From the NCBI GenBank assembly GCA_018716385.1, contig DVJZ01000048.1, positions 62,001 to 126,000 of the forward strand: a DNA stretch of 64,000 nt. Direction: 5' to 3'. The translations under genes were made by a program, and so were the position numbers. Below are positions 11,093-21,955 of this stretch, piece by piece (the first letter of the stretch is position 1; each line of letters opens with the position of its first letter). The DNA is from Candidatus Enterenecus merdae. Lineage in GTDB: Bacteria > Bacillota > Clostridia > Oscillospirales > Oscillospiraceae. Under the pieces are notes generated by a model, which was not told the DNA's origin, did no database searches, and saw nothing but the letters and a program-made list of their open reading frames with translations.

Positions 11093-11461
11093 TCACTTGA
11101 GGGCGATGGCCTCAATCTCACACAGGGCCCCCTTGGGCAGGGCCTTGACCGCCACACAGGAGCGGGCGGGCTTAGAGGTGAAGTACTTGGCGTACACCTC
11201 GTTGAAGGCGGCAAAGTCGCCCATATCGGCCAGGAAGCAGGTAGTTTTGACCACTTTGCCAAGGCCGGAACCGGCAGCCTCCAGGATGGCCCCTACGTTC
11301 TTGCAGCTCCACTCGGCCTGGGCGGCGATACCTTCGGGCATCTCCCCGGTCTCGGGGTTTACCGGCAGCTGACCGGAGGTGATGACCAGGCCCAGGGCCT
11401 CATACCCCTGGGAGTAGGGGCCGATGGCCCCGGGGGCATTTTTCGTATCAACGACGTTCAT
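11093..11461 (-). CDS. ridA: RidA-family enamine/imine deaminase
   Basis: The 122-residue product is a typical RidA/YjgF trimer subunit: GAIGPYSQGYEAL, ITSGQLPVNPETGEM, VKTTCFLADMGDFAAFNEVYAKYF, PARSCVAV with the conserved substrate-binding arginine, and CEIEAIALK. RidA hydrolyses 2-aminoacrylate and similar enamines released by PLP enzymes acting on cysteine or serine. It is last in an operon with a dicarboxylate-type symporter (57-base gap) and a MalY/PatB C-S lyase, which produces exactly this intermediate. AAGGAGG precedes ATG 11461. Confidence 0.95.
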   Translation of the reverse strand: MNVVDTKNAPGAIGPYSQGYEALGLVITSGQLPVNPETGEMPEGIAAQAEWSCKNVGAILEAAGSGLGKVVKTTCFLADMGDFAAFNEVYAKYFTSKPARSCVAVKALPKGALCEIEAIALK

Positions 11462-11518
11462 GACAGATTCCTCCTTGGAAATTTATAATCTATGATCATC
11501 CGTTGTGGCCAAAATGAG

Positions 11519-12796
11519 TCAGTCCTGCGGCTGCTTCTTCTTGGCCGCCACCGCCTTGACCAGCCAGTCCTTGCCCTCCACCAGACGGGTGACCATCATG
11601 GAGGCAATGGTGTCGCCAGAGGAGTTCAGACAGGTGGCGGCGGGGTCAAAGATGAAGCCCAGAGTGGCGATGATGGGGAAGGCCTCAGCGGGGAAGCCGA
11701 ACATGCTGACGATGAGCATCTCACCCACCAGGCCGCCGCCGGGGGCGCCGGAGAGGACGAAGGCGGACAGGATGGCCACCACGATGGACATGGCGTAGGT
11801 TCCCACGCCGGAGAAATTCATACCGAAGATGCCATAAAGGAAGCAAATTTTCACAATGGAACTGAGCACCGAGCCGTCCATATGCATGGTGCAGCCCATG
11901 GGGAGCACCAGATCGCTGATATCTTTGGGTACGCCGATGTTATCGCAGGCCTCTTTATTTACCGGGATGGTGGCAGCGGAGGACTGGGTGGCAAAGGCGG
12001 TAATGGCAGGCGGGAAAATGTGCTTGGCCATGAGCTTCACACCCAGTTTGCCGCCGGATAGGAAGGCGTACAGGGGGAAGAAAATGACGCCGTAGAGCAG
12101 ACACAGAGGATAGTAGACCAGCATGGACCGGCCATAGTCGCCGATGATCTGAGGGCCGTAGGTGGCCACCAGGTTGGCGAAGTAAGCGCCCAGACCCAGA
12201 GGGGCGATGAGCATGATAACGCCAACAAACTTCATGATGATATCGTTGAGGTTGATCAGCAGCTTGCCCATGGGGGTCTCATCGCCGCCGCAGGCAGACA
12301 CACAGAAGCCGAAGATGATGGCGAAGATGATCAGGGGCAGCATGTTGGATTTGTTCCACAGTTGGGAGAAGTCGTCCACCGTCAGGGAACTGACGATCAG
12401 CTCGGCGGCAGTCTTTGCCTCTCCCACCTCACCGGTCGTCAGCTCGATGGCAGTTCCGGCGGAGGGGCTGAAGATGTTCACCCAGATTAGCACGCAGGCT
12501 GCGGCGATGATGCCGGTGAAGATAAAGGTGCCGATGGTGCTGCCCAGGATCTTGCCCAGTCGCTTCATGTTGGCCATGCTGCCCACGGCGGAGGCGATGG
12601 ATACGAATACCAGGGGTACCACGATGGTGAACAGCAGGTTCAGGAAGATATCGCCGATGGGCTTGATAGCGGTTCCCACATTGGGGGCAAAGGCGCCAAT
12701 GAGCGCGCCGATGATGATGCCGCCCAGGATCAGGATTAGGCTTCCGTACTGCTGCCAGAAGGACTTCTTCTTAATGATGGCCGACGAAGTTGACAT
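11519..12796 (-). CDS. Dicarboxylate/amino acid:cation symporter (SDF/DAACS family)
   Basis: The 425-residue membrane protein has the family hallmarks: IGDIFLNLLFTIVVPLVFVSIASAVG, the serine-rich hairpin AFATQSSAATIPVN, PMGCTMHMDGSV in the binding region, and FDPAATCLNSSGDTIASMM near the end. Members import glutamate, aspartate, serine, threonine, cystine or C4-dicarboxylates with sodium or protons. The C-S lyase and ridA partners suggest a cystine-, cysteine- or serine-type substrate, which is inference. It lies 50 bases after the lyase gene and shares its sigma-54 promoter. Confidence 0.9.
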   Translation of the reverse strand: MSTSSAIIKKKSFWQQYGSLILILGGIIIGALIGAFAPNVGTAIKPIGDIFLNLLFTIVVPLVFVSIASAVGSMANMKRLGKILGSTIGTFIFTGIIAAACVLIWVNIFSPSAGTAIELTTGEVGEAKTAAELIVSSLTVDDFSQLWNKSNMLPLIIFAIIFGFCVSACGGDETPMGKLLINLNDIIMKFVGVIMLIAPLGLGAYFANLVATYGPQIIGDYGRSMLVYYPLCLLYGVIFFPLYAFLSGGKLGVKLMAKHIFPPAITAFATQSSAATIPVNKEACDNIGVPKDISDLVLPMGCTMHMDGSVLSSIVKICFLYGIFGMNFSGVGTYAMSIVVAILSAFVLSGAPGGGLVGEMLIVSMFGFPAEAFPIIATLGFIFDPAATCLNSSGDTIASMMVTRLVEGKDWLVKAVAAKKKQPQD

Positions 12797-12846
12797 GATG
12801 GATGCTCCTCTCTTTTTTATATTGATCAGTATCTGTCAGGGCAGCC

Positions 12847-14022
12847 TCACAGGGCCTTGACCGCCGCCTCCAGCTGTTTCATGGCCTGCTCCAGCACGCT
12901 GCGGGGGCAGGCGCAGTTGAGCCGCATGTAGCCACTCAGGCTGCGGCCGAAGGTGTCCCCCTCGTTCAGGCCCAGCTTGGCCTTCTCAATCATGAAGCGG
13001 CGCAGTGCCGCATTGTCCAGCCCCAGCGCTCGGCAGTCTAACCACATCAGATAGGTGGCGTCGGGAGCGTAGGTCTTGATCTGGGGGATGTGTTTCTCGC
13101 AGTAGTCCACCACAAAGTCAAAGTTATCGGACAGGTAGGGCAGCAGCTGGTCCAGCCACTCCTCCCCCTCGTTGAAGGCCGCCTGCATGGCCGTGAGTGA
13201 GAAGGCGTTGTTGCGATGGATGTCCATACACTGCCAATAGCGGTCAAAAACCTGCTTCATGTGGGCGTTGGGGAAGACCACCGTGGATGCCTGCAGGCCT
13301 GCCAGGTTAAAGGTCTTGGTGCCCGAGATGCCGGTAACCACATACTTGGCCGCCTCAGGGGAGACCATGGCGGTGGGGGTGTGCTTCCTGCCGTGGAACA
13401 CCAGATCGGAGTGGATCTCGTCGGAAAAGAGGACCACATGGTGCTTGATGCACAGATCCACCATGCGCCGTAGCTCCTCCGGGGTCCACACGATGCCCAG
13501 GGGGTTGTGGGGGCTGCACAGCAAGAACAGGTCGCTCTCGGCCAGCTTCGCTTCAAAGTCGGCCCAGTCCACCTCCCACTTGCCGTCCTTCTCCACGAAG
13601 CGGTTCTCCACCACTTTGCGGTTCCATGCCTCGGTCATGTCGTAGAACTCGGAGTACACCGGTGTCTGGATGAGCACACTGCCTCCTTCCGGCGTGAACA
13701 GCTTGACCATAGCGCTGATGGATTGCACCACCCCAAGGCTGAAGCTCATCAGGCTCTGGTCGATCTCCCAGCCGTGGCGGCGCTTCTGCCAGCCCCGGAC
13801 GGCCGCAAAGTAGCTGTCCGGGCGGCTGGTGTACCCCCAGATGCCCTCCTGGGCCCGCTGGCCCAAAGCGTCAATGACGGGCTGGGCGGTCTTGAAATCC
13901 ATGTCCGCGATCCAAAGCGGGATCACGTCGTCGGTCCCGAACTTCTTTTTCCGCTCGTCATACTTGGCCGAACAATTCCGGCTGCGGTCAATGACCACAT
14001 CAAAATCATACTTCATCTCCAC
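12847..14022 (-). CDS. MalY/PatB-type PLP-dependent C-S beta-lyase
   Basis: The 391-residue protein matches the MalY/PatB branch of fold-type I aminotransferases: DVIPLWIADMDFKT, GIWGYTSRPDSYF, LLCSPHNPLGIVWT, LFSDEIHSDLVFHG, and the PLP lysine in SGTKTFNLAGLQ. These enzymes cleave cystathionine or cysteine to pyruvate, ammonia and a thiol or sulfide through 2-aminoacrylate; some also act as aminotransferases. It is first in an operon with the symporter and ridA. A -24/-12 promoter lies 57-71 bases upstream, and the enhancer-binding protein gene is the next gene upstream. Confidence 0.92.
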   Translation of the reverse strand: MEMKYDFDVVIDRSRNCSAKYDERKKKFGTDDVIPLWIADMDFKTAQPVIDALGQRAQEGIWGYTSRPDSYFAAVRGWQKRRHGWEIDQSLMSFSLGVVQSISAMVKLFTPEGGSVLIQTPVYSEFYDMTEAWNRKVVENRFVEKDGKWEVDWADFEAKLAESDLFLLCSPHNPLGIVWTPEELRRMVDLCIKHHVVLFSDEIHSDLVFHGRKHTPTAMVSPEAAKYVVTGISGTKTFNLAGLQASTVVFPNAHMKQVFDRYWQCMDIHRNNAFSLTAMQAAFNEGEEWLDQLLPYLSDNFDFVVDYCEKHIPQIKTYAPDATYLMWLDCRALGLDNAALRRFMIEKAKLGLNEGDTFGRSLSGYMRLNCACPRSVLEQAMKQLEAAVKAL

Positions 14023-14078
14023 TTACCTACCTTTCCTTCCCGGCCCTATACCTGACCGTGCGTTCGACTTGATAGAGA

Positions 14079-14093
14079 GCAATCCCCGTGCCG
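14079..14093 (-). promoter_or_regulatory. Sigma-54 (-24/-12) promoter of the C-S lyase operon
   Basis: On the minus strand CGGCACG-GGGA-TTGCT matches TGGCACG-N4-TTGCW with one change. The invariant GG is at 14092-14091 and GC at 14080-14079. Spacing is identical to the second sigma-54 promoter at 16471-16486. Transcription would start near 14067, about 45 bases before the ATG. Confidence 0.8.
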
Positions 14094-14163
14094 AAAGGGC
14101 CGCTTCTTCCAAAATTGTCTGACTGTCCTAAAATTCTATGTCTTATTTTTGGCCAAAATGCAT

Positions 14164-14202
14164 AAAAATACTGCCGGGTCATCCGAAGCCGCCCGGCAGT
14201 AT
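14164..14202 (-). terminator. Terminator of the enhancer-binding protein gene
   Basis: On the minus strand ATACTGCCGGG pairs with CCCGGCAGTAT and is followed by TTTTTATG. It separates the regulator transcript from the sigma-54 promoter of the lyase operon. Confidence 0.85.
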
Positions 14203-14225
14203 CCTTTGTGACTGGGGCGTAAATA

Positions 14226-14250
14226 GGCCAAACAGGCTAAATTGGTTAAA
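14226..14250 (-). promoter_or_regulatory. Candidate upstream activator sequence: three 9-base-spaced repeats
   Basis: On the minus strand TTTAACC (14250-14244), TTTAGCC (14241-14235) and TTTGGCC (14232-14226) recur every 9 bases, straddling the regulator's stop codon. They lie 134-158 bases upstream of the -24 element of the lyase operon, the usual range for an enhancer site. The same TTTAACC-N2-TTTAACC unit occurs upstream of the other sigma-54 target at 16359-16374. Confidence 0.65.
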
Positions 14251-16333
14251 CTGTTTTGTCCGGAAACTGCCCCTCCAGGCGCCTGCACAGGTCACGGCCG
14301 GCCGGGGTGAGGCGGGTCCCCCCTCTTCCCCGGCTGATCCGCACCAACCCCGCCTGGTCCAGGTCGGATAGGATACGCCGCACCTGCTGCTGAGAGCAGG
14401 GCAGTCCCGCTGCCCTGGCGGCGGCCAGGATCGGCTCCCGGCCCAGGCTCTGCCCCATCCGGTCTGCCCTTGCCAGCTGTTCCAGCACGAAGCGCTCATC
14501 CTCCCCGGGGCAGTCAGGCAGGCCGGGCAGCTCTGCCCCGGTGGGCGCGGCAAGGGGCTCGGCCCCGGCGGGCAGGTAGTGGAAGGTGGGCGGTAGATCC
14601 CCCGGTTCCACCACCTGGCTGCCGGTATAGCTGAAGTATTCCACTACGTTGCGCAGCTCCCGGATGTTGCCCCGCCACTGATGGGTGAGCAGCATCCGCT
14701 CCAGTTCAGGGGAAAGGGTAAACGAGGCCCCGATCCCCCGCCGGAACTGGTCGATGAGCACCAGCAGGTCCCCCTCCCGCTCCCGCAGCGGCGGGATGAG
14801 GACGGGCAGGGTGTTCAGCCGGTAGTACAGGTCCCGGCGGAAGCTGCCCTCCTCCACCCGGCGCTCCAGGTCCTCGTTGGTGGCCGCCACGATACGCACA
14901 TCCACTGAGATGATCCGGTTGCCCCCCACCCGCATGATCTCCCGCTCCTGGAGCACACGCAGCAGCTTACACTGCAGGGCGGTGCTCATCCCCTCCACTT
15001 CGTCCAGGAACAGGGTGCCCTTGTGGGCAAACTCGAACAGGCCGGGCTTACCCCCCTTCCGGGCGCCGGTGAAGGCCCCCTCCTCATAGCCGAACAGCTC
15101 GCTCTCCAGCAGGTTTTCCGGCATGGCCGCGCAGTTGATGGCCACAAAGGGTCCGTTCCGCCGGGGGGATGCATTGTGGACCGCATGGGCGAAGATCTCC
15201 TTGCCGGTACCTGTCTCCCCAATGAGCAGGACGGGCAGCTGGGTCTGGCACATCTTTTTCAGAATGGTGATACACCGCTGGATGGCCGGGGAGCGGCCCA
15301 CCACATCCTCAAAAGTATACTTGGCCCGGTAGCCCTTGTGGAACAGCTGGGTACGCAGCTCGTTCTGCTGGTTCTCCGCGTCGCTAAACCGCTGGACGGT
15401 GGCAAACGCGCCGATGCACACATCCCCGCGGAGCACAGGGGTCACCGCGACATTGATGTTGATTCCCCCCGCACTCACCACCTGGGTGGGCTGGGGCGCC
15501 CTCTCCTCCAGGCACCTCGCAAAGGGCAGGAAGGGGTAGACCTCTCCGGCGGGCCGCCGGAGCGCGTCCTGGCTTGAAATGCCGGTGATCTCCTCCATCT
15601 TGTGATTGCAGGCAAACACCTCCCCCCGCTCGTTGACCCCCACGACCCCCTTGTCCAGAATCTCCATGAGCATCTCAAACTGGCTCTCCAACCTCAGCCC
15701 CCTGGCAAACACCCGATCAAAGTTGTAGGTGTTGGTGGCCATCTCCTGCTGGTAGCGCTCAAAGGCCTCTGTCTCCAGCAGATCATCAAATCCCATGCGC
15801 AGGGCTGCCTCAATCATAGTGGAGCTGTCGCACCCCCGCTGGCCAATGTCGATGATCTCCTTGGCCCCGGCGGGGACATACCGGGTCTCCTGGGGCGTGA
15901 TGACCAGGTCGTACTGGCCCATATCCGGTTCCGGCGCGCCGGGATAGTACAGGTCGAACTCCAACTGGTTGACCCCAAGCTGTTCCAGGCGGCTCACCGC
16001 CTCCCGGCACATCTGGTCACTCAGGTTGACGAAGAGGGCCCGCTTGCCAGCGGGCAGGGTCTGGAGCCGGTGAATCACGTCCCAGCGGAAGGTCACATGG
16101 ATCTCCATCATCTCCCCGTCAATGGGCACATACCGGCGCAGATCCCCCAGGGAATTGAGCGCGTCAGTGGTGACCATATACAGGTCGTGCTTCCGGGGCA
16201 TGTGTTCCACTGAACCGTCCCGCACACTGTAGGAGCACGCGGCCACCCGATCCCCAAACAGCTCCTGCACCTGCTGGGCATAGAACTGGCCCGCATAGGC
16301 GTCCAGGGAGATCACCGCCACGTCTTTTTTCAT
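14246..16333 (-). CDS. Sigma-54-dependent transcriptional activator (PAS plus AAA+)
   Basis: The 695-residue enhancer-binding protein has an N-terminal sensory region of about 200 residues that I do not recognise and a PAS-like domain at about 220-320. An AAA+ module follows with Walker A GETGTGKE (372-379), the sigma-54-contacting GAFTGA (419-424) and Walker B LFLDE (441-445). The C-terminus looks like a winged helix (SQQQVRRILSDLDQAGLVRI) rather than a Fis-type helix-turn-helix. ATG 16333 is chosen because AAAGGAGGGG precedes it; the frame stays open upstream without homology. It lies between two operons with -24/-12 promoters and shared repeats, so it very likely controls both. Confidence 0.93.
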   Translation of the reverse strand: MKKDVAVISLDAYAGQFYAQQVQELFGDRVAACSYSVRDGSVEHMPRKHDLYMVTTDALNSLGDLRRYVPIDGEMMEIHVTFRWDVIHRLQTLPAGKRALFVNLSDQMCREAVSRLEQLGVNQLEFDLYYPGAPEPDMGQYDLVITPQETRYVPAGAKEIIDIGQRGCDSSTMIEAALRMGFDDLLETEAFERYQQEMATNTYNFDRVFARGLRLESQFEMLMEILDKGVVGVNERGEVFACNHKMEEITGISSQDALRRPAGEVYPFLPFARCLEERAPQPTQVVSAGGININVAVTPVLRGDVCIGAFATVQRFSDAENQQNELRTQLFHKGYRAKYTFEDVVGRSPAIQRCITILKKMCQTQLPVLLIGETGTGKEIFAHAVHNASPRRNGPFVAINCAAMPENLLESELFGYEEGAFTGARKGGKPGLFEFAHKGTLFLDEVEGMSTALQCKLLRVLQEREIMRVGGNRIISVDVRIVAATNEDLERRVEEGSFRRDLYYRLNTLPVLIPPLREREGDLLVLIDQFRRGIGASFTLSPELERMLLTHQWRGNIRELRNVVEYFSYTGSQVVEPGDLPPTFHYLPAGAEPLAAPTGAELPGLPDCPGEDERFVLEQLARADRMGQSLGREPILAAARAAGLPCSQQQVRRILSDLDQAGLVRISRGRGGTRLTPAGRDLCRRLEGQFPDKTV

Positions 16334-16345
16334 AGAGGCCCCTCC

Positions 16346-16374
16346 TTTAACCGATTTCTTTAACCAGTTTAACC
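16346..16374. promoter_or_regulatory. Candidate enhancer/operator: three TTTAACC repeats
   Basis: TTTAACC occurs at 16346-16352, 16359-16365 and 16368-16374. The last two form TTTAACCAGTTTAACC with the same 9-base period as the site near 14.24 kb. The array is 98-126 bases upstream of the -24 element of the cysteine desulfidase-family gene. It also lies just inside the predicted 5' end of the regulator transcript, so activator binding could also repress the regulator. Confidence 0.7.
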
Positions 16375-16385
16375 GTTTTATAACT

Positions 16386-16414
16386 ATTGTGCCGCTTCCC
16401 CTCGCCCTTGTCAA
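16386..16414 (-). promoter_or_regulatory. Sigma-A promoter of the sigma-54 activator gene
   Basis: On the minus strand TTGACA (16414-16409), 17 bases, CACAAT (16391-16386). The start point would be near 16379, directly before the TTTAACC repeats. Confidence 0.55.
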
Positions 16415-16469
16415 GGTCAAATCCACCCATTTTCCACACTTCTCCCGGGGATTCCGCGCCGCTTTCGAT

Positions 16470-16486
16470 TTGGCACGCCGGTTGCA
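16470..16486 (+). promoter_or_regulatory. Sigma-54 (-24/-12) promoter of the cysteine desulfidase-family gene
   Basis: TTGGCACG-CCGG-TTGCA is a perfect match to the YTGGCACG-N4-TTGCW consensus, with GG at 16472-16473 and GC at 16484-16485. Transcription would start near 16497, about 60 bases before ATG 16556. Confidence 0.92.
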
Positions 16487-16555
16487 ACAATGTTGGGATA
16501 GAACGTCCGGAAAACACAGCCGCCCCAACCGGGAGGCGGAAAGGAGAGAAACACG

Positions 16556-17848
16556 ATGCAACTGAGTAAGGAAGAAATGTTGACCCTGCTGCGCCAGGAG
16601 GTCGTCCCTGCCCTGGGCTGCACCGAGCCCGTGTGCGTCGCCCTGTGCGCTGCCGACGCCTACCACGCCATCGGCGGACAAGTGGTATCCATCAAGATGG
16701 AGGTCAACCCCGGTATCTATAAAAACGGCATGTCGGTGGGCATCCCCGGTTTCGACCGGGTAGGTCTGAAGTACGCCGCCGCCCTGGGCGCCTGCTTAGG
16801 CAATCCGGAGAAAAAGCTGCAGCTGCTGGAGGAGATCAACAGCATCGTCAGCAAGGAGGCCATCCGCCTGGTGGAGGAAAAGAAGGTGAGCGTCACCATC
16901 GCCGAGGCGGAGACACAGCTCTATGCCCATGCCGAGGTCATCACCACCCGGGGCATCGGCATCAGCACCATCCGAAATACCCACGCCAATATCGTCTACA
17001 CCAGCGCCAACAATCAGGTGCTCTTCGAGCAGGAATATTCTGTGGCAGGCGAGGACGCCCTCCACCAAAAGCTCAAAAGCATGAGCGTGGCCCAGATCCG
17101 GGAGCTGGTGGACTCCGCCACCGAGGAGGAGCTGGCCTTCATGCTGGAGGGGGCGGAAATGAACGAGGCCCTCTCCGACTACGGCCTGGAACACCGTCTG
17201 GGCATCGGCATCGCCGACACCCTGAAAACCCAGCTGGACACCAATGTCATGGGGCCCAGCCTGATGAGCCGCATCATGGTGCGGGTGGCTTCCAGCGCCG
17301 AGGGGCGCATGTCCGGCTGCCCCTACGCGGTGATGAGCAGCGCCGGCAGCGGCAATCACGGCATCACCGCCATCATCCCCGTGGTGGAGATGGCCAATCA
17401 CCTGGGCGCCAGCCGGGAGGCCACCGAGAAAGCCCTGGCCCTATCCCACCTGCTCAACGTTTACATCAAGCTCTTCACCGGCAAGCTCAGCGCCACCTGC
17501 GGCTGCGGGGTATCCGCCGCCGCCGCGGCCAGCGCCGCCATGGTCTGGCTGCTAGGCGGGGATAGCACCCAGATGGGAGCGGCCATCATCAACATGAGCG
17601 CCAACCTCACCGGCATGATCTGTGACGGGGGCAAGATCGGCTGCGCCCTCAAACTGACCACTGCGGCCAGCGCCGCCATCATGAGCGCCTATCTGGCCGT
17701 GGGCGGCGTGGTGGTCAGCGCCACCGACGGCATCTGTGCCGACACCCCGGAGCAGGCCATCCGCAACATGGGCCGGGTGAGCAATCCCGGCATGACCGCC
17801 ACCGACCGCACCATTCTGGATATCATGATGGAGAAGGATCAAAGCTGA
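16556..17848 (+). CDS. L-cysteine desulfidase / L-serine dehydratase alpha-like protein (UPF0597 family)
   Basis: The 430-residue protein is a UPF0597/SDH_alpha-fold member. It has [10 protein letters not shown] near residue 21, the family's catalytic-type cysteine motif, and cysteines suited to an iron-sulfur cluster in [10 protein letters not shown] and [14 protein letters not shown]. Characterised relatives (Methanocaldococcus L-cysteine desulfidase, Escherichia coli CyuA/YhaM) convert cysteine to pyruvate, sulfide and ammonia; serine dehydration is the alternative. It starts at ATG 16556 after GGCGGAAAGGAGAG. Transcription from a perfect sigma-54 promoter, with a nearby activator gene, implies inducible amino acid catabolism. 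Confidence 0.88.
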
Positions 17849-18508: not shown

Positions 18509-21500
18509 TCAGTCCTTCACTTTTATAGTCATCAGCAGTTCTCCAGCCTTGACGGAGGTGCCCTCCTGGATGGACACCTGGTCCACGATCCCGTCCATCC
18601 GGGCCACCACCGAGGTCTCCATCTTCATGGCCTCGATAACCGCCAATACCTGGTTCTCCGTCACCACGTCCCCCGGCTTCACGTTCACCTTAGACACCAT
18701 GCCCGGGATGGAGGAACCCACCTGGCTCTTATCCTCAGGGTCGGCCAGCACCACGTTCTTGCCCTTGACCTGGGCCCGCTTGTCGGGCACGGCCACCTCT
18801 CGGCGCATCCCGTTGAGCTCGAAGTTGACGGTGCGGGTTCCATCCTCGTTCTGGTCGCCCAGGCCCAGGTAGCGAATGACCAGGGTCTTGCCATCCTCAA
18901 TGTTGATCTTGTTGGTCTCACCCAGGGCCATGCCGTTAAAGAAGACATGGCTGCCCATGCGCATGATGTAGCCGTACTCCTGGCGGTGGCGGCAGTAGTC
19001 CTCATACACTTTGGGGAACAGGCAGTAGGACAGCATCCCCCGCATGTTGATGCGCCCCTCGTCCATGAAGCGGAGCATCTCCTGCCGGGTCTTGTCAAAG
19101 TCCACGGGGGGCAGCAGCTCGCCGGGCCGGCAGGTGATGGGCTGCTCGCCCTTGAGCACCACCTCCTGCAGCCCCTCGGGCTGGAAGCCCCAGGCAGGCT
19201 GGCCCATCATGCCCTTGAAGTAGCTGACCACCGAGTCTGGGAAGGACAGATTTTTGCCCCGCTCGATGATGTTCTCTGGGGTGAGGTCGTTTTGCACCAT
19301 GAAGATGGCCAGATCTCCCACCATCTTGGAGGAGGGCGTCACCTTGACGATATCGCCCAGCATCTCGTTGACGGTGCGGTACATCTCCTTAACTTCCTCA
19401 AAGCGGCTGCCCAGCCCCAGGGACACCACCTGGGGATACAGGTTGGTGTACTGCCCCCCGGGGATCTCGTAGCGGTAGATGTCGGTAGTGGGACTGCGCA
19501 GACCCTCGTCGAAGCTCTGGTAGCGCAGGCGCACGTCCGCCCAGTAGTTGTCCAGCCGCTGGATCTCCCGCAGGTCCAGGCCAGTGTCCCGCTCCTGCCC
19601 CTCCAGGGCGGCCACCACCGCCGACAGGGAGGGCTGGCTGGTCAGGGAGGACAGGGAAGCGGTGGCACAGTCCACGATGTCCACCCCCGCCTCGGCGGCC
19701 ATCAGATAGGTAGCCACCTGGTTGGCGGTGGTGTCGTGGGTGTGCAGGTGGATGGGCAGGCCCACCTCCTGCTTCAGGGCGGACACCAACTTCTTAGCCG
19801 CATAGGGTTTCAAGAGGCCGGACATGTCCTTGATGCACAGGGTGTGGGCCCCCCGGCGCTCCAGCTCCTTGGCCATGTCTACATAATACTTTAAGGTATA
19901 CTTATCCCGCTTGGGGTCCAGGATGTCGCCGGTGTAGCACATGGTGGCCTCCAGCAGCTTGTTCTGCTTGAGCACCTCGTCCATGGCCACCTCCATGCCG
20001 GGCAGCCAGTTGAGCGAGTCGAACACCCGGAACACGTCGATGCCCGACCGGGCCGCTTCCTTGACAAACTCCCGCACCAGGTTGTCCGGGAAGTTGGCGT
20101 AGCCCACCATGTTGGACCCCCGCAGCAGCATCTGGAAAGGGATGTTGGGGATCTTCTCCCGGAGCATATCCAGCCGCTCCCAGGGCGACTCATGGAGGAA
20201 GCGGTAGGCGGTGTCGAAGGTGGCCCCTCCCCACATCTCCAAGGAGAAGCAGTCATTGAGGATCTCCGCCACCCCGTCAGCCCCCTTGACCATGTCCCGG
20301 GTGCGCATCCGGGTGGACAGCAGGGACTGGTGGGCGTCACGCATGGTGGTGTCGGTGATGAGCAGCTTCTTTTGCTCCAGCACCCACTGCTTGACCGCCT
20401 CTGGCCCCTTGGTGTCCAGCAACTGCTTGAGCCCGCACAGCGGCCGGTCCCCCTTGGGGGTGGGGAAGCGGGGGGTATCGTACTGGTGGCGCTCGGTATC
20501 CGGATTGTCCACCTGGATCTGAGCGATGTACTTGAGCACCTTGGTTGCCCGGTCCCGGCTGTTCTCAATGTCAAACAGCTCTGGGGTGTCGTCGATGAAC
20601 TTGGTGTGGCACTTGCCCGCGTGGAAATCCGGATGGGTCAGGATATTGGTGATGAAGGGGATGTTGGTCTTGACCCCCCGCACATGCTCCTCGCTCACGG
20701 CCCGGGTGGCCCGGCGGCAGGCCCCCTCAAAGGTATTGTCCCAGGAGGTGACCTTCACCAGCAGCGAGTCATAGTAGGGGGAGATGACGGTACCCGCCGC
20801 GGCGTTGCCGCCGTCCAGGCGCACCCCGAAACCGCCCCCGGAGCGATAGGCGGTGATCTTGCCGGTGTCGGGGGCGAAATGGTTGGCCGGATCCTCGGTG
20901 GTCACCCGGCACTGGATGGCGTAGCCGTTCATGCGCAGGTCCTCCTGCCGGGCCAGGCCGATGGCCGGGTGGGACAGGGGATGCCCCTCGGCGATGAGGA
21001 TCTGGGCCCGCACCAGGTCCACCCCGGTGACCATCTCGGTGACGGTGTGCTCCACCTGGATGCGGGGATTCATCTCGATGAAGTAGTGCTGGCCGGTCTT
21101 TCCATCCACCAGGAACTCCACGGTGCCGGCATTGACATAGTTGACGTGCTTGGCAATCTTCACCGCGTCGGCCCGCAGGGCCTCGATGGTGTCCTCGGGC
21201 ACCGACCAGGCGGGGGCGTACTCCACCACCTTCTGGTAGCGCCGCTGGAGGGAGCAGTCCCGCTCCCCCAGGTGCATCACGTTACCGTGCTCATCGGCCA
21301 GGATCTGCACCTCGATGTGCTTGGGCTGCACCAGGAACTTCTCGATGAAGATATCCTCGTTGCCAAAGGCTTTCCGGGCCTCGTTCTTCACCAGCTGGAA
21401 CTCCCGGCGCACGTCCTCCTCGTTGTCACACCGGCGCATGCCCCGGCCGCCGCCGCCGGCCGCCGCCTTTAAGATGATGGGGAATCCGTAGCTCACCGCC

Positions 21501-21955
21501 AACTCCACCGCCTCATCCGCGTCCCGCAGCGGCTGGGTGGAGCCGGGGATGATGGGTACGTCGCAGGCGATGGCCGTGGCCTTGGCCGCCAGCTTGTCCC
21601 CCATCTGGGCCAGGATGTGGGAGGGAGGGCCAATGAACTTGATGCCGTTTTGCTCGCAGGCCTTGGCAAACTCCGCGTTCTCGCTGAGAAAGCCATAGCC
21701 AGGGTGGATGGCGTCCACCCCCCGGCGCCGGGCCAGGTCGATGATACCCGGGATGTCCAGATAGGCCCCCAGAGGGGACTGGTTCTCCCCGATGAGGTAG
21801 GCCTCGTCCGCTTTGATGCGGAACATGGAGTTGATGTCCTCATTGGAATACATAGCTACGGTGTGCACTCCCAGGTCGTAGCAAGCCCGGAAAATGCGGA
21901 TGGCGATCTCGCCGCGGTTTGCCGCCAATACCTTAGAAAACTGTGCTGCGGGCAC
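18509..21955 (-). CDS. pyc: Pyruvate carboxylase
   Basis: The 1148-residue protein is full length for a single-chain pyruvate carboxylase. Domains in order: biotin carboxylase (KVLAANRGEIAIRIFRACY, KAAAGGGGRGMR, EMNPRIQVEHTVTEMVTG), carboxyltransferase (DTTMRDAHQSLLSTRMRT, ALCIKDMSG-type metal region), the PYC/OADA conserved domain, and a C-terminal biotinyl domain with EAMKMETSV. It makes oxaloacetate from pyruvate, bicarbonate and ATP. Start is GTG 21955, six bases after GAAGGAGGGG. It lies alone, with malic enzyme and fructose bisphosphatase encoded elsewhere in the window. Confidence 0.97.
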   Translation of the reverse strand: MPAAQFSKVLAANRGEIAIRIFRACYDLGVHTVAMYSNEDINSMFRIKADEAYLIGENQSPLGAYLDIPGIIDLARRRGVDAIHPGYGFLSENAEFAKACEQNGIKFIGPPSHILAQMGDKLAAKATAIACDVPIIPGSTQPLRDADEAVELAVSYGFPIILKAAAGGGGRGMRRCDNEEDVRREFQLVKNEARKAFGNEDIFIEKFLVQPKHIEVQILADEHGNVMHLGERDCSLQRRYQKVVEYAPAWSVPEDTIEALRADAVKIAKHVNYVNAGTVEFLVDGKTGQHYFIEMNPRIQVEHTVTEMVTGVDLVRAQILIAEGHPLSHPAIGLARQEDLRMNGYAIQCRVTTEDPANHFAPDTGKITAYRSGGGFGVRLDGGNAAAGTVISPYYDSLLVKVTSWDNTFEGACRRATRAVSEEHVRGVKTNIPFITNILTHPDFHAGKCHTKFIDDTPELFDIENSRDRATKVLKYIAQIQVDNPDTERHQYDTPRFPTPKGDRPLCGLKQLLDTKGPEAVKQWVLEQKKLLITDTTMRDAHQSLLSTRMRTRDMVKGADGVAEILNDCFSLEMWGGATFDTAYRFLHESPWERLDMLREKIPNIPFQMLLRGSNMVGYANFPDNLVREFVKEAARSGIDVFRVFDSLNWLPGMEVAMDEVLKQNKLLEATMCYTGDILDPKRDKYTLKYYVDMAKELERRGAHTLCIKDMSGLLKPYAAKKLVSALKQEVGLPIHLHTHDTTANQVATYLMAAEAGVDIVDCATASLSSLTSQPSLSAVVAALEGQERDTGLDLREIQRLDNYWADVRLRYQSFDEGLRSPTTDIYRYEIPGGQYTNLYPQVVSLGLGSRFEEVKEMYRTVNEMLGDIVKVTPSSKMVGDLAIFMVQNDLTPENIIERGKNLSFPDSVVSYFKGMMGQPAWGFQPEGLQEVVLKGEQPITCRPGELLPPVDFDKTRQEMLRFMDEGRINMRGMLSYCLFPKVYEDYCRHRQEYGYIMRMGSHVFFNGMALGETNKINIEDGKTLVIRYLGLGDQNEDGTRTVNFELNGMRREVAVPDKRAQVKGKNVVLADPEDKSQVGSSIPGMVSKVNVKPGDVVTENQVLAVIEAMKMETSVVARMDGIVDQVSIQEGTSVKAGELLMTIKVKD

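Follow-up and report, generated by a model that had tools for sequence, protein, structure and literature searches.

Described systems and the locus in Enterenecus

Cysteine breakdown is one source of gut sulfide. In Clostridioides difficile, control of a cysteine desulfidase by sigma-54 and the activator CdsR has been shown by experiment (PMC5767170), and sigma-54 regulons have been predicted for malY (activator XcyR, with a distribution that includes Flavonifractor) and for a RidA-family gene together with a pyridoxal phosphate (PLP)-dependent lyase (activator DioR; genes tdcF and dpaL) (PMC6615313). RidA genes have also been described to cluster with cystathionine beta-lyase and D-cysteine desulfhydrase (PMC4433059). 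Here we describe a locus in a 64-kb (64,000 nt) stretch of Candidatus Enterenecus merdae contig DVJZ01000048.1, hereafter the window, whose positions are used throughout. One sigma-54 activator gene lies between a divergent cysteine desulfidase gene (cdsB) and an operon for a C-S lyase (patB), a symporter and RidA, and each flank has its own -24/-12 site. Judging from the sequence, these genes probably form a sigma-54 circuit with a single activator through which cysteine-type amino acids are fermented.

The CdsR-CdsB system of C. difficile (PMC5767170; regulon in PMC6615313) resembles this module in having a sigma-54 promoter, an adjacent activator, an upstream activator site and a cysteine desulfidase target. 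Compared with CdsR-CdsB as described there, the module has a predicted winged-helix activator with another N-terminal domain, a divergent gene order and 9-bp direct repeats, and it adds a second operon for PatB, symporter and RidA. The XcyR regulon, malY-pepT-hyp (PMC6615313, Table 1), shares predicted sigma-54 control of a MalY-family lyase, and XcyR may belong to the same activator group as ours, but neither cdsB nor RidA nor a symporter appears in that table. Flavonifractor plautii has two MalY-like genes at E ≤ 1e-60. Because neither an activator match within 1.5 kb of the second gene nor a site scoring at least 11 of the 12 fixed promoter positions in the surrounding 14 kb was found (a more distant malY was not sought), we weakly favour that the activator described here is XcyR of Flavonifractor.

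The C. difficile genes CD2732/CD2733-CD2734.1 (PMC7438776, Table 4) likewise include a PLP-dependent enzyme and a transporter behind a sigma-54 promoter, with an activator adjacent. The operon as listed, however, contains no desulfidase or RidA, and cdsB is there a separate CdsR target. Escherichia coli cyuPA (PMC9040844) joins an importer to a desulfidase, ferments cysteine to pyruvate and is induced by its substrate, with the RidA-family gene tdcF in the adjacent tdc operon; its regulators are CyuR and Crp instead of sigma-54, and the operon as described has no PatB. The DioR regulon (PMC6615313, PMC7438776) is alike in kind, since a RidA-family gene and an ammonia lyase stand under one sigma-54 activator, but its enzymes and activator differ. 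In DVU0151 orthologues of Desulfovibrionales (PMC4641369) the C-terminus of the sigma-54 activator matches a winged-helix model and not Fis, a likeness by description.

Literature searches returned no description of the combination of module genes under one activator, and a search on winged-helix sigma-54 activators showed no description of this module. For the control of cysteine breakdown in Flavonifractor, Gemmiger and Fournierella, the open-licence literature yielded nothing beyond the XcyR table entry. The preliminary description of the locus had called it not a standard described module; this holds for the union of its parts and fails for the parts themselves, as CdsR-cdsB, XcyR-malY, DioR-tdcF and RidA clustering were already on record. 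Neither the parts of the module nor its principle are new; what differs is the class of activator, which joins them into a two-promoter arrangement. New is the union of cdsB, malY-type and RidA parts under one predicted winged-helix activator, mainly in Oscillospirales.

Two sigma-54 promoters conserved in relatives

We observed agreement between the open reading frames (ORFs) and site scores and the five genes and two -24/-12 sites originally proposed. The cdsB promoter, TTGGCACGCCGGTTGCA (16470..16486, + strand), matches 12 of 12 fixed positions and the patB-operon promoter, TCGGCACGGGGATTGCT (14078..14094, - strand), 11 of 12. The start sites, near 16497 and 14067, are geometric predictions only. 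Three sites in the window score at least 11, two of them being these promoters; the third is an 11/12 site, TTGGCATGGTTTTTTCA, at 2795 (+). A loose count allowing up to two mismatches gave 27 sites in the window against 39.5 by chance, fewer than expected. Since the bare site count is not significant, the evidence lies in position and conservation. The identical internal spacing of the two promoters, pointed out earlier, adds no evidence because it is the normal sigma-54 spacing.

We used the N-terminal domain of the activator as a marker for relatives. At E ≤ 1e-6 the domain was found in 4 of 394 genomes of the order, its own included, which makes the module rare; the other three genomes have the identical five genes in the identical layout. 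Named genomes were scanned with two peptide patterns only, and 26 loci came out, four of them duplicate records under other ids and some ending early. These belong to Flavonifractor (including F. plautii ATCC 29863), Gemmiger, Fournierella and other Oscillospiraceae, and to the more distant Enterocloster and Clostridiales 1_7_47_FAA. A divergent cdsB is present in 20/26 and a downstream patB in 23/26, while genes beyond the block vary between loci (ORF lists, judged by eye). The grouping first proposed, of one activator and two sigma-54 units with 2-aminoacrylate-type enzymes, RidA and an importer, thus recurs as a block in relatives.

The promoters recur with it; their absence from orthologous loci would have refuted the preliminary description. 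All 21 cdsB regions have a site of 11 or 12 (12/12 in 20, 11/12 in one), and all 24 patB regions have one of 10 to 12 (12/12 in 11, 11/12 in eight, 10/12 in five), the window being included in both sets. On the opposite strand of the same regions the best score was 9. Dinucleotide shuffles scored 11 in 4/1050 (cdsB) and 3/1200 (patB) cases and never reached 12. As shuffles reached at least 10 in 58/1050 and 50/1200 cases, the five patB sites at 10/12 are individually weak, and because the loci are related the regions are not independent trials.

TTTRACCRA-type direct repeats, each about 9 bp long and overlooked in the preliminary description, lie upstream of both promoters in near-uniform orientation towards the promoter. 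In the window, some 90-155 bp separate the repeat blocks from the -24 elements downstream. The candidate upstream activator site of cdsB, TTTAACCGATTTCTTTAACCAGTTTAACCGTTTT (16346..16379, +), has three copies and overlies the 5' leader of the activator gene; that of patB, TTTAACCAATTTAGCCTGTTTGGCCTATTT (14221..14250, -), consists of a complete copy, which overlaps the stop codon of the activator, and two degenerate ones. The motif was spotted in four loci and then counted in the remaining loci. Outside the discovery set, 17 cdsB regions held 43 forward and 0 reverse copies (shuffle mean 2.4, maximum 8) and 20 patB regions held 29 forward and 2 reverse (mean 2.2, maximum 7). Across all 45 regions the count was 88 forward versus 4 reverse, and the commonest spacing was 9 bp (18 of 48 successive pairs). 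The repeats are a probable activator site, a weak one at the patB promoter of the window.

The preliminary description had staked its reading, beforehand, on rpoN being present elsewhere in the genome, and the genome carries rpoN once. The window activator is the genome's only PF00158 match above 33 bits; five others reach at most 32.3 bits. The pattern TGGCRYN5TTGCW occurs at 8 sites genome-wide versus 3 for the reversed pattern. All seven sites besides that of cdsB lie inside long stop-to-stop frames, and the 220 bp upstream of them contain no repeat match at six and a single one at the seventh. With only one strong activator in the genome, this module may be all that sigma-54 serves. In four genus-mates both rpoN and a strong activator are missing. 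Among 150 genomes of the family, 13 of the 40 that carry rpoN have exactly one strong activator, which weakens any claim that this state is unique; these counts are approximate because some genomes show an activator without an rpoN match or the reverse. Sequence and conservation together establish the gene set, both promoters, the repeats, the domain types, rpoN and the single strong activator.

The activator and the enzymes

The activator (695 aa; 14246..16333, -) was assigned by domain scan and predicted structure. It comprises an N-terminal alpha/beta domain (about residues 1-200), a PAS domain (219-281), an AAA+ domain with GAFTGA (345-511) and a predicted winged helix (about 611-690). A PF00158 match of 237 bits at 345-511 and the GAFTGA motif make it a sigma-54 enhancer-binding protein. 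The N-terminal domain, a possible relative of the PrpR_N sensor domain (PF06506), matched no Pfam family in the domain scan and nothing in Foldseek at E ≤ 1e-3. HTH_8/Fis (PF02954) had no match in the Pfam scan of the activator and was not among the matches listed (25 of 31 families) for 20 C-termini of the activator group, where Rrf2 (18/20) and the winged-helix family HTH_12 (16/20) were commonest. By structure prediction the C-terminus is a winged helix and not of Fis type, and membership in the Fis-type CdsR group (PAS, AAA+, Fis) was rejected on domain make-up. Some relatives have further activators: after patB, the L033 cluster includes another sigma-54 activator that carries a Fis domain (L033:11910-13703; L045 gives the same match), and L131 has a second one with a Fis-looking tail. 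In L142 and L152, by sequence reading, activator-family members precede sigma-54-like sites of indolepyruvate oxidoreductase- and butyrate kinase-like operons.

The activator gene has a sigma-A-like promoter (16386..16414, -; TTGACA at 16409-16414, 17 nt, CACAAT at 16386-16391). TTGACA recurs in 18/21 loci, and the hexamer 17 nt on, at -10, is variable. The cdsB repeat block falls between this promoter and the activator start codon, over the leader, which suggests that the activator may dampen its own transcription when the repeats are occupied. A likely intrinsic terminator of the activator gene (14164..14203, -), a GC hairpin with a T run, separates the stop codon of the activator from the patB promoter; the hairpin reaches -18.8 kcal/mol or lower in 15 of 24 regions and is weaker or missing in the other nine.

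The product of cdsB (16556..17848, +) was placed in the CyuA/CdsB family of [4Fe-4S] L-cysteine desulfidases by its diagnostic residues and its two PDB matches, both of which are L-cysteine desulfidases. Its C22, E24, C315, C317, C356 and C363 align with Cys23, Glu25, Cys287, Cys289, Cys329 and Cys336 of MmCyuA, for which the catalytic Cys/Glu dyad and cluster cysteines have been defined (PMC12647591). All 19 module proteins longer than 400 aa share nine of its ten cysteines without exception, among them the five that align with MmCyuA. A pyruvate carboxylase-like ORF (18509-21955, -), recognized by reading its sequence, is convergent with cdsB.

In the operon, the PatB/MalY-family C-S lyase (12847..14022, -) matches TIGR04350 at 469 bits (cut-off 340) and contains SGTK, which we take to be the PLP lysine motif. 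Its listed start is a GTG; the ATG at 14016, where the proteins of relatives begin, is the likelier one. The RidA gene (11093..11461, -) encodes a TIGR00004 enamine/imine deaminase (156 bits, cut-off 106.25) with the conserved Arg within PARSCVAVKALPKGALCEIEAIA.

The symporter (11519..12796, -) was assigned to the SDF/DAACS family by family scan. All four NCBIfam models that it matched among named SDF importers (SstT, GltP, DctA) scored far below cut-off, and no cystine-importer model was among the NCBIfam matches listed. In its FDPAAT motif an Ala stands where solved aspartate transporters carry Arg (LDMART). Because of this replacement the protein is probably not an acidic amino acid carrier, and the Ala speaks for a neutral or disulfide substrate.

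The symporter gene varies among relatives. In L023:11534-12754 it is swapped in place for another SDF subfamily (45% identity) between neighbours 89-95% identical to those of the window. In Enterocloster (L042:11556-12824) it is 90% identical to the window's, against 54% for the activator and 68% for PatB, so acquisition by gene transfer is possible there. In 12 of the 26 relatives (L025:12866-13117; also L023, L024, L026, L027, L028, L029, L031, L033, L036, L039 and L045) the cluster contains an 85-aa thioredoxin/glutaredoxin-like protein with an SHLCPDT motif, recognized by our own sequence reading and without a Pfam family; it is absent from the window. In L161:8209-8463 such an 85-aa thioredoxin-like protein stands behind a 12/12 sigma-54 site and adjoins a disulfide-reductase-like gene. 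If this protein reduces disulfides, cystine would fit as a substrate.

A proposed circuit and its alternatives

What we infer is activator binding, its inducer, autoregulation, the transport substrate and 2-aminoacrylate flux, as follows. The sigma-A-like promoter of the activator gene would supply a basal level of activator, which would bind the 9-bp repeats upstream of both sigma-54 promoters. Its N-terminal domain, its PAS domain or both would sense a substrate or product, whereupon the AAA+ ring would open RNA polymerase-sigma-54 on both sides. On one side this would induce the [4Fe-4S] cysteine desulfidase; on the other, a symporter importing a neutral or disulfide amino acid and a PatB-type lyase that could split cysteine, cystine, cystathionine or S-conjugates. 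RidA would hydrolyse the 2-aminoacrylate/2-iminopropionate released by desulfidase and PatB. The route would yield pyruvate, ammonia and sulfide or thiols. Occupancy of the repeat block over the activator leader may damp transcription of the activator itself. CyuA produces 2-aminoacrylate (PMC12647591) and cystathionine beta-lyase-type enzymes can do so (PMC4433059); by analogy with this family chemistry, the module enzymes would be linked through the same intermediate. A further step, in which the predicted winged-helix activator, with a sensor domain of a kind not yet described, and its two promoters are the whole sigma-54 network of this genome, a switch that with rpoN is self-contained, that governs cysteine fermentation and 2-aminoacrylate clean-up and whose sensor reads the reactive product or the substrate directly, seems to us rather doubtful.

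Several observations weigh against the proposed circuit. PatB enzymes and SDF carriers have broad substrate ranges. Among the named loci RidA is found in 16/26 and an SDF symporter of at least 70% identity in 18/26. No cdsB was seen in 6/26, one of them a 4-kb contig, and desulfurisation is therefore not a universal target. The patB site of the window has one mismatch and those of five relatives have two; the genome-wide promoter pattern permitted none, excluding one-mismatch sites like that of patB. No forward repeat match was present in 5 of the 45 regions, all of them patB regions, including that of the window, although the patB regions for this count started after the activator stop codon, which the full copy in the window overlaps. 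The original idea that the regulon pairs 2-aminoacrylate producers with a detoxifier is supported by the recurring block, but RidA, being less constant, looks more like an accessory than a core component.

These observations can also be read in other ways. One alternative is that another lineage simply carries the CdsR-CdsB switch already known from Clostridia, and that patB, symporter and RidA lie beside it without being related to it. Such control of cdsB has experimental precedent, and when 25 further cdsB-like loci of the class were sampled, 10 had an activator within the 1.5-kb flanks and 15 a site of at least 10/12 within 300 bp upstream. However, CdsR is described as a 591-aa protein with a Fis domain (PMC5767170), unlike the window activator with its predicted winged-helix C-terminus. 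Of the 10 activators beside other cdsB genes, eight exceed the cut-off for HTH_8 (Fis), one falls short of it (18.9 versus 22 bits) and one has no such match; the last has an HTH_50 match below cut-off. Moreover, a conserved promoter stands before patB itself, which is found in no fewer loci than cdsB (23/26 versus 20/26), and we consider this explanation very unlikely. Hardly credible is the proposal that the genes serve serine instead of cysteine, with the desulfidase-like protein as a serine dehydratase. The only Pfam match of that protein is SDH_alpha (PF03313) and its TIGR00718 match is weak, yet its cluster cysteines are spaced CxC and Cys-7-Cys as in MmCyuA, and the Cys/Glu dyad, reported as not conserved in serine dehydratases (PMC12647591), is present, its motif GCTEP occurring in 21/21 module desulfidases. 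On this dyad we rejected the dehydratase assignment: the SDH_alpha-type protein is, by its sequence, a cysteine desulfidase.

A more serious contender, although we lean against it, is that the locus mainly lets PatB exploit cysteine S-conjugates or peptides containing Cys, and that cdsB joined later to burn the cysteine set free. A patB with the activator family but no cdsB occurs in L042, L043 and L046, and also in L131, L133, L135 and L161 (4 of 35 further loci). In L131, a more distant relative whose activator is 50% identical, a 12/12 site lies on either side of the activator, before patB and before an amidohydrolase-like gene. L043 has an AbgT transporter and an M24 peptidase (Pfam) after patB; by sequence reading, L046 and L131 have AbgT-like proteins and L131 also an M24-like one. 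Nie 2019 places XcyR, with malY-pepT-hyp, under peptide degradation (PMC6615313). Against this, in 20/26 named loci the gene divergent from the activator is cdsB, and it has the best promoter.

In conclusion, the module offers what is probably a small sigma-54 circuit of two promoters and one activator, together with a natural test of whether RidA is induced along with the producers of 2-aminoacrylate. Its activator represents a class that lacks the Fis domain usual in such proteins and is widespread in Clostridia: the N-terminal domain is present in 31 of 391 sampled genomes.

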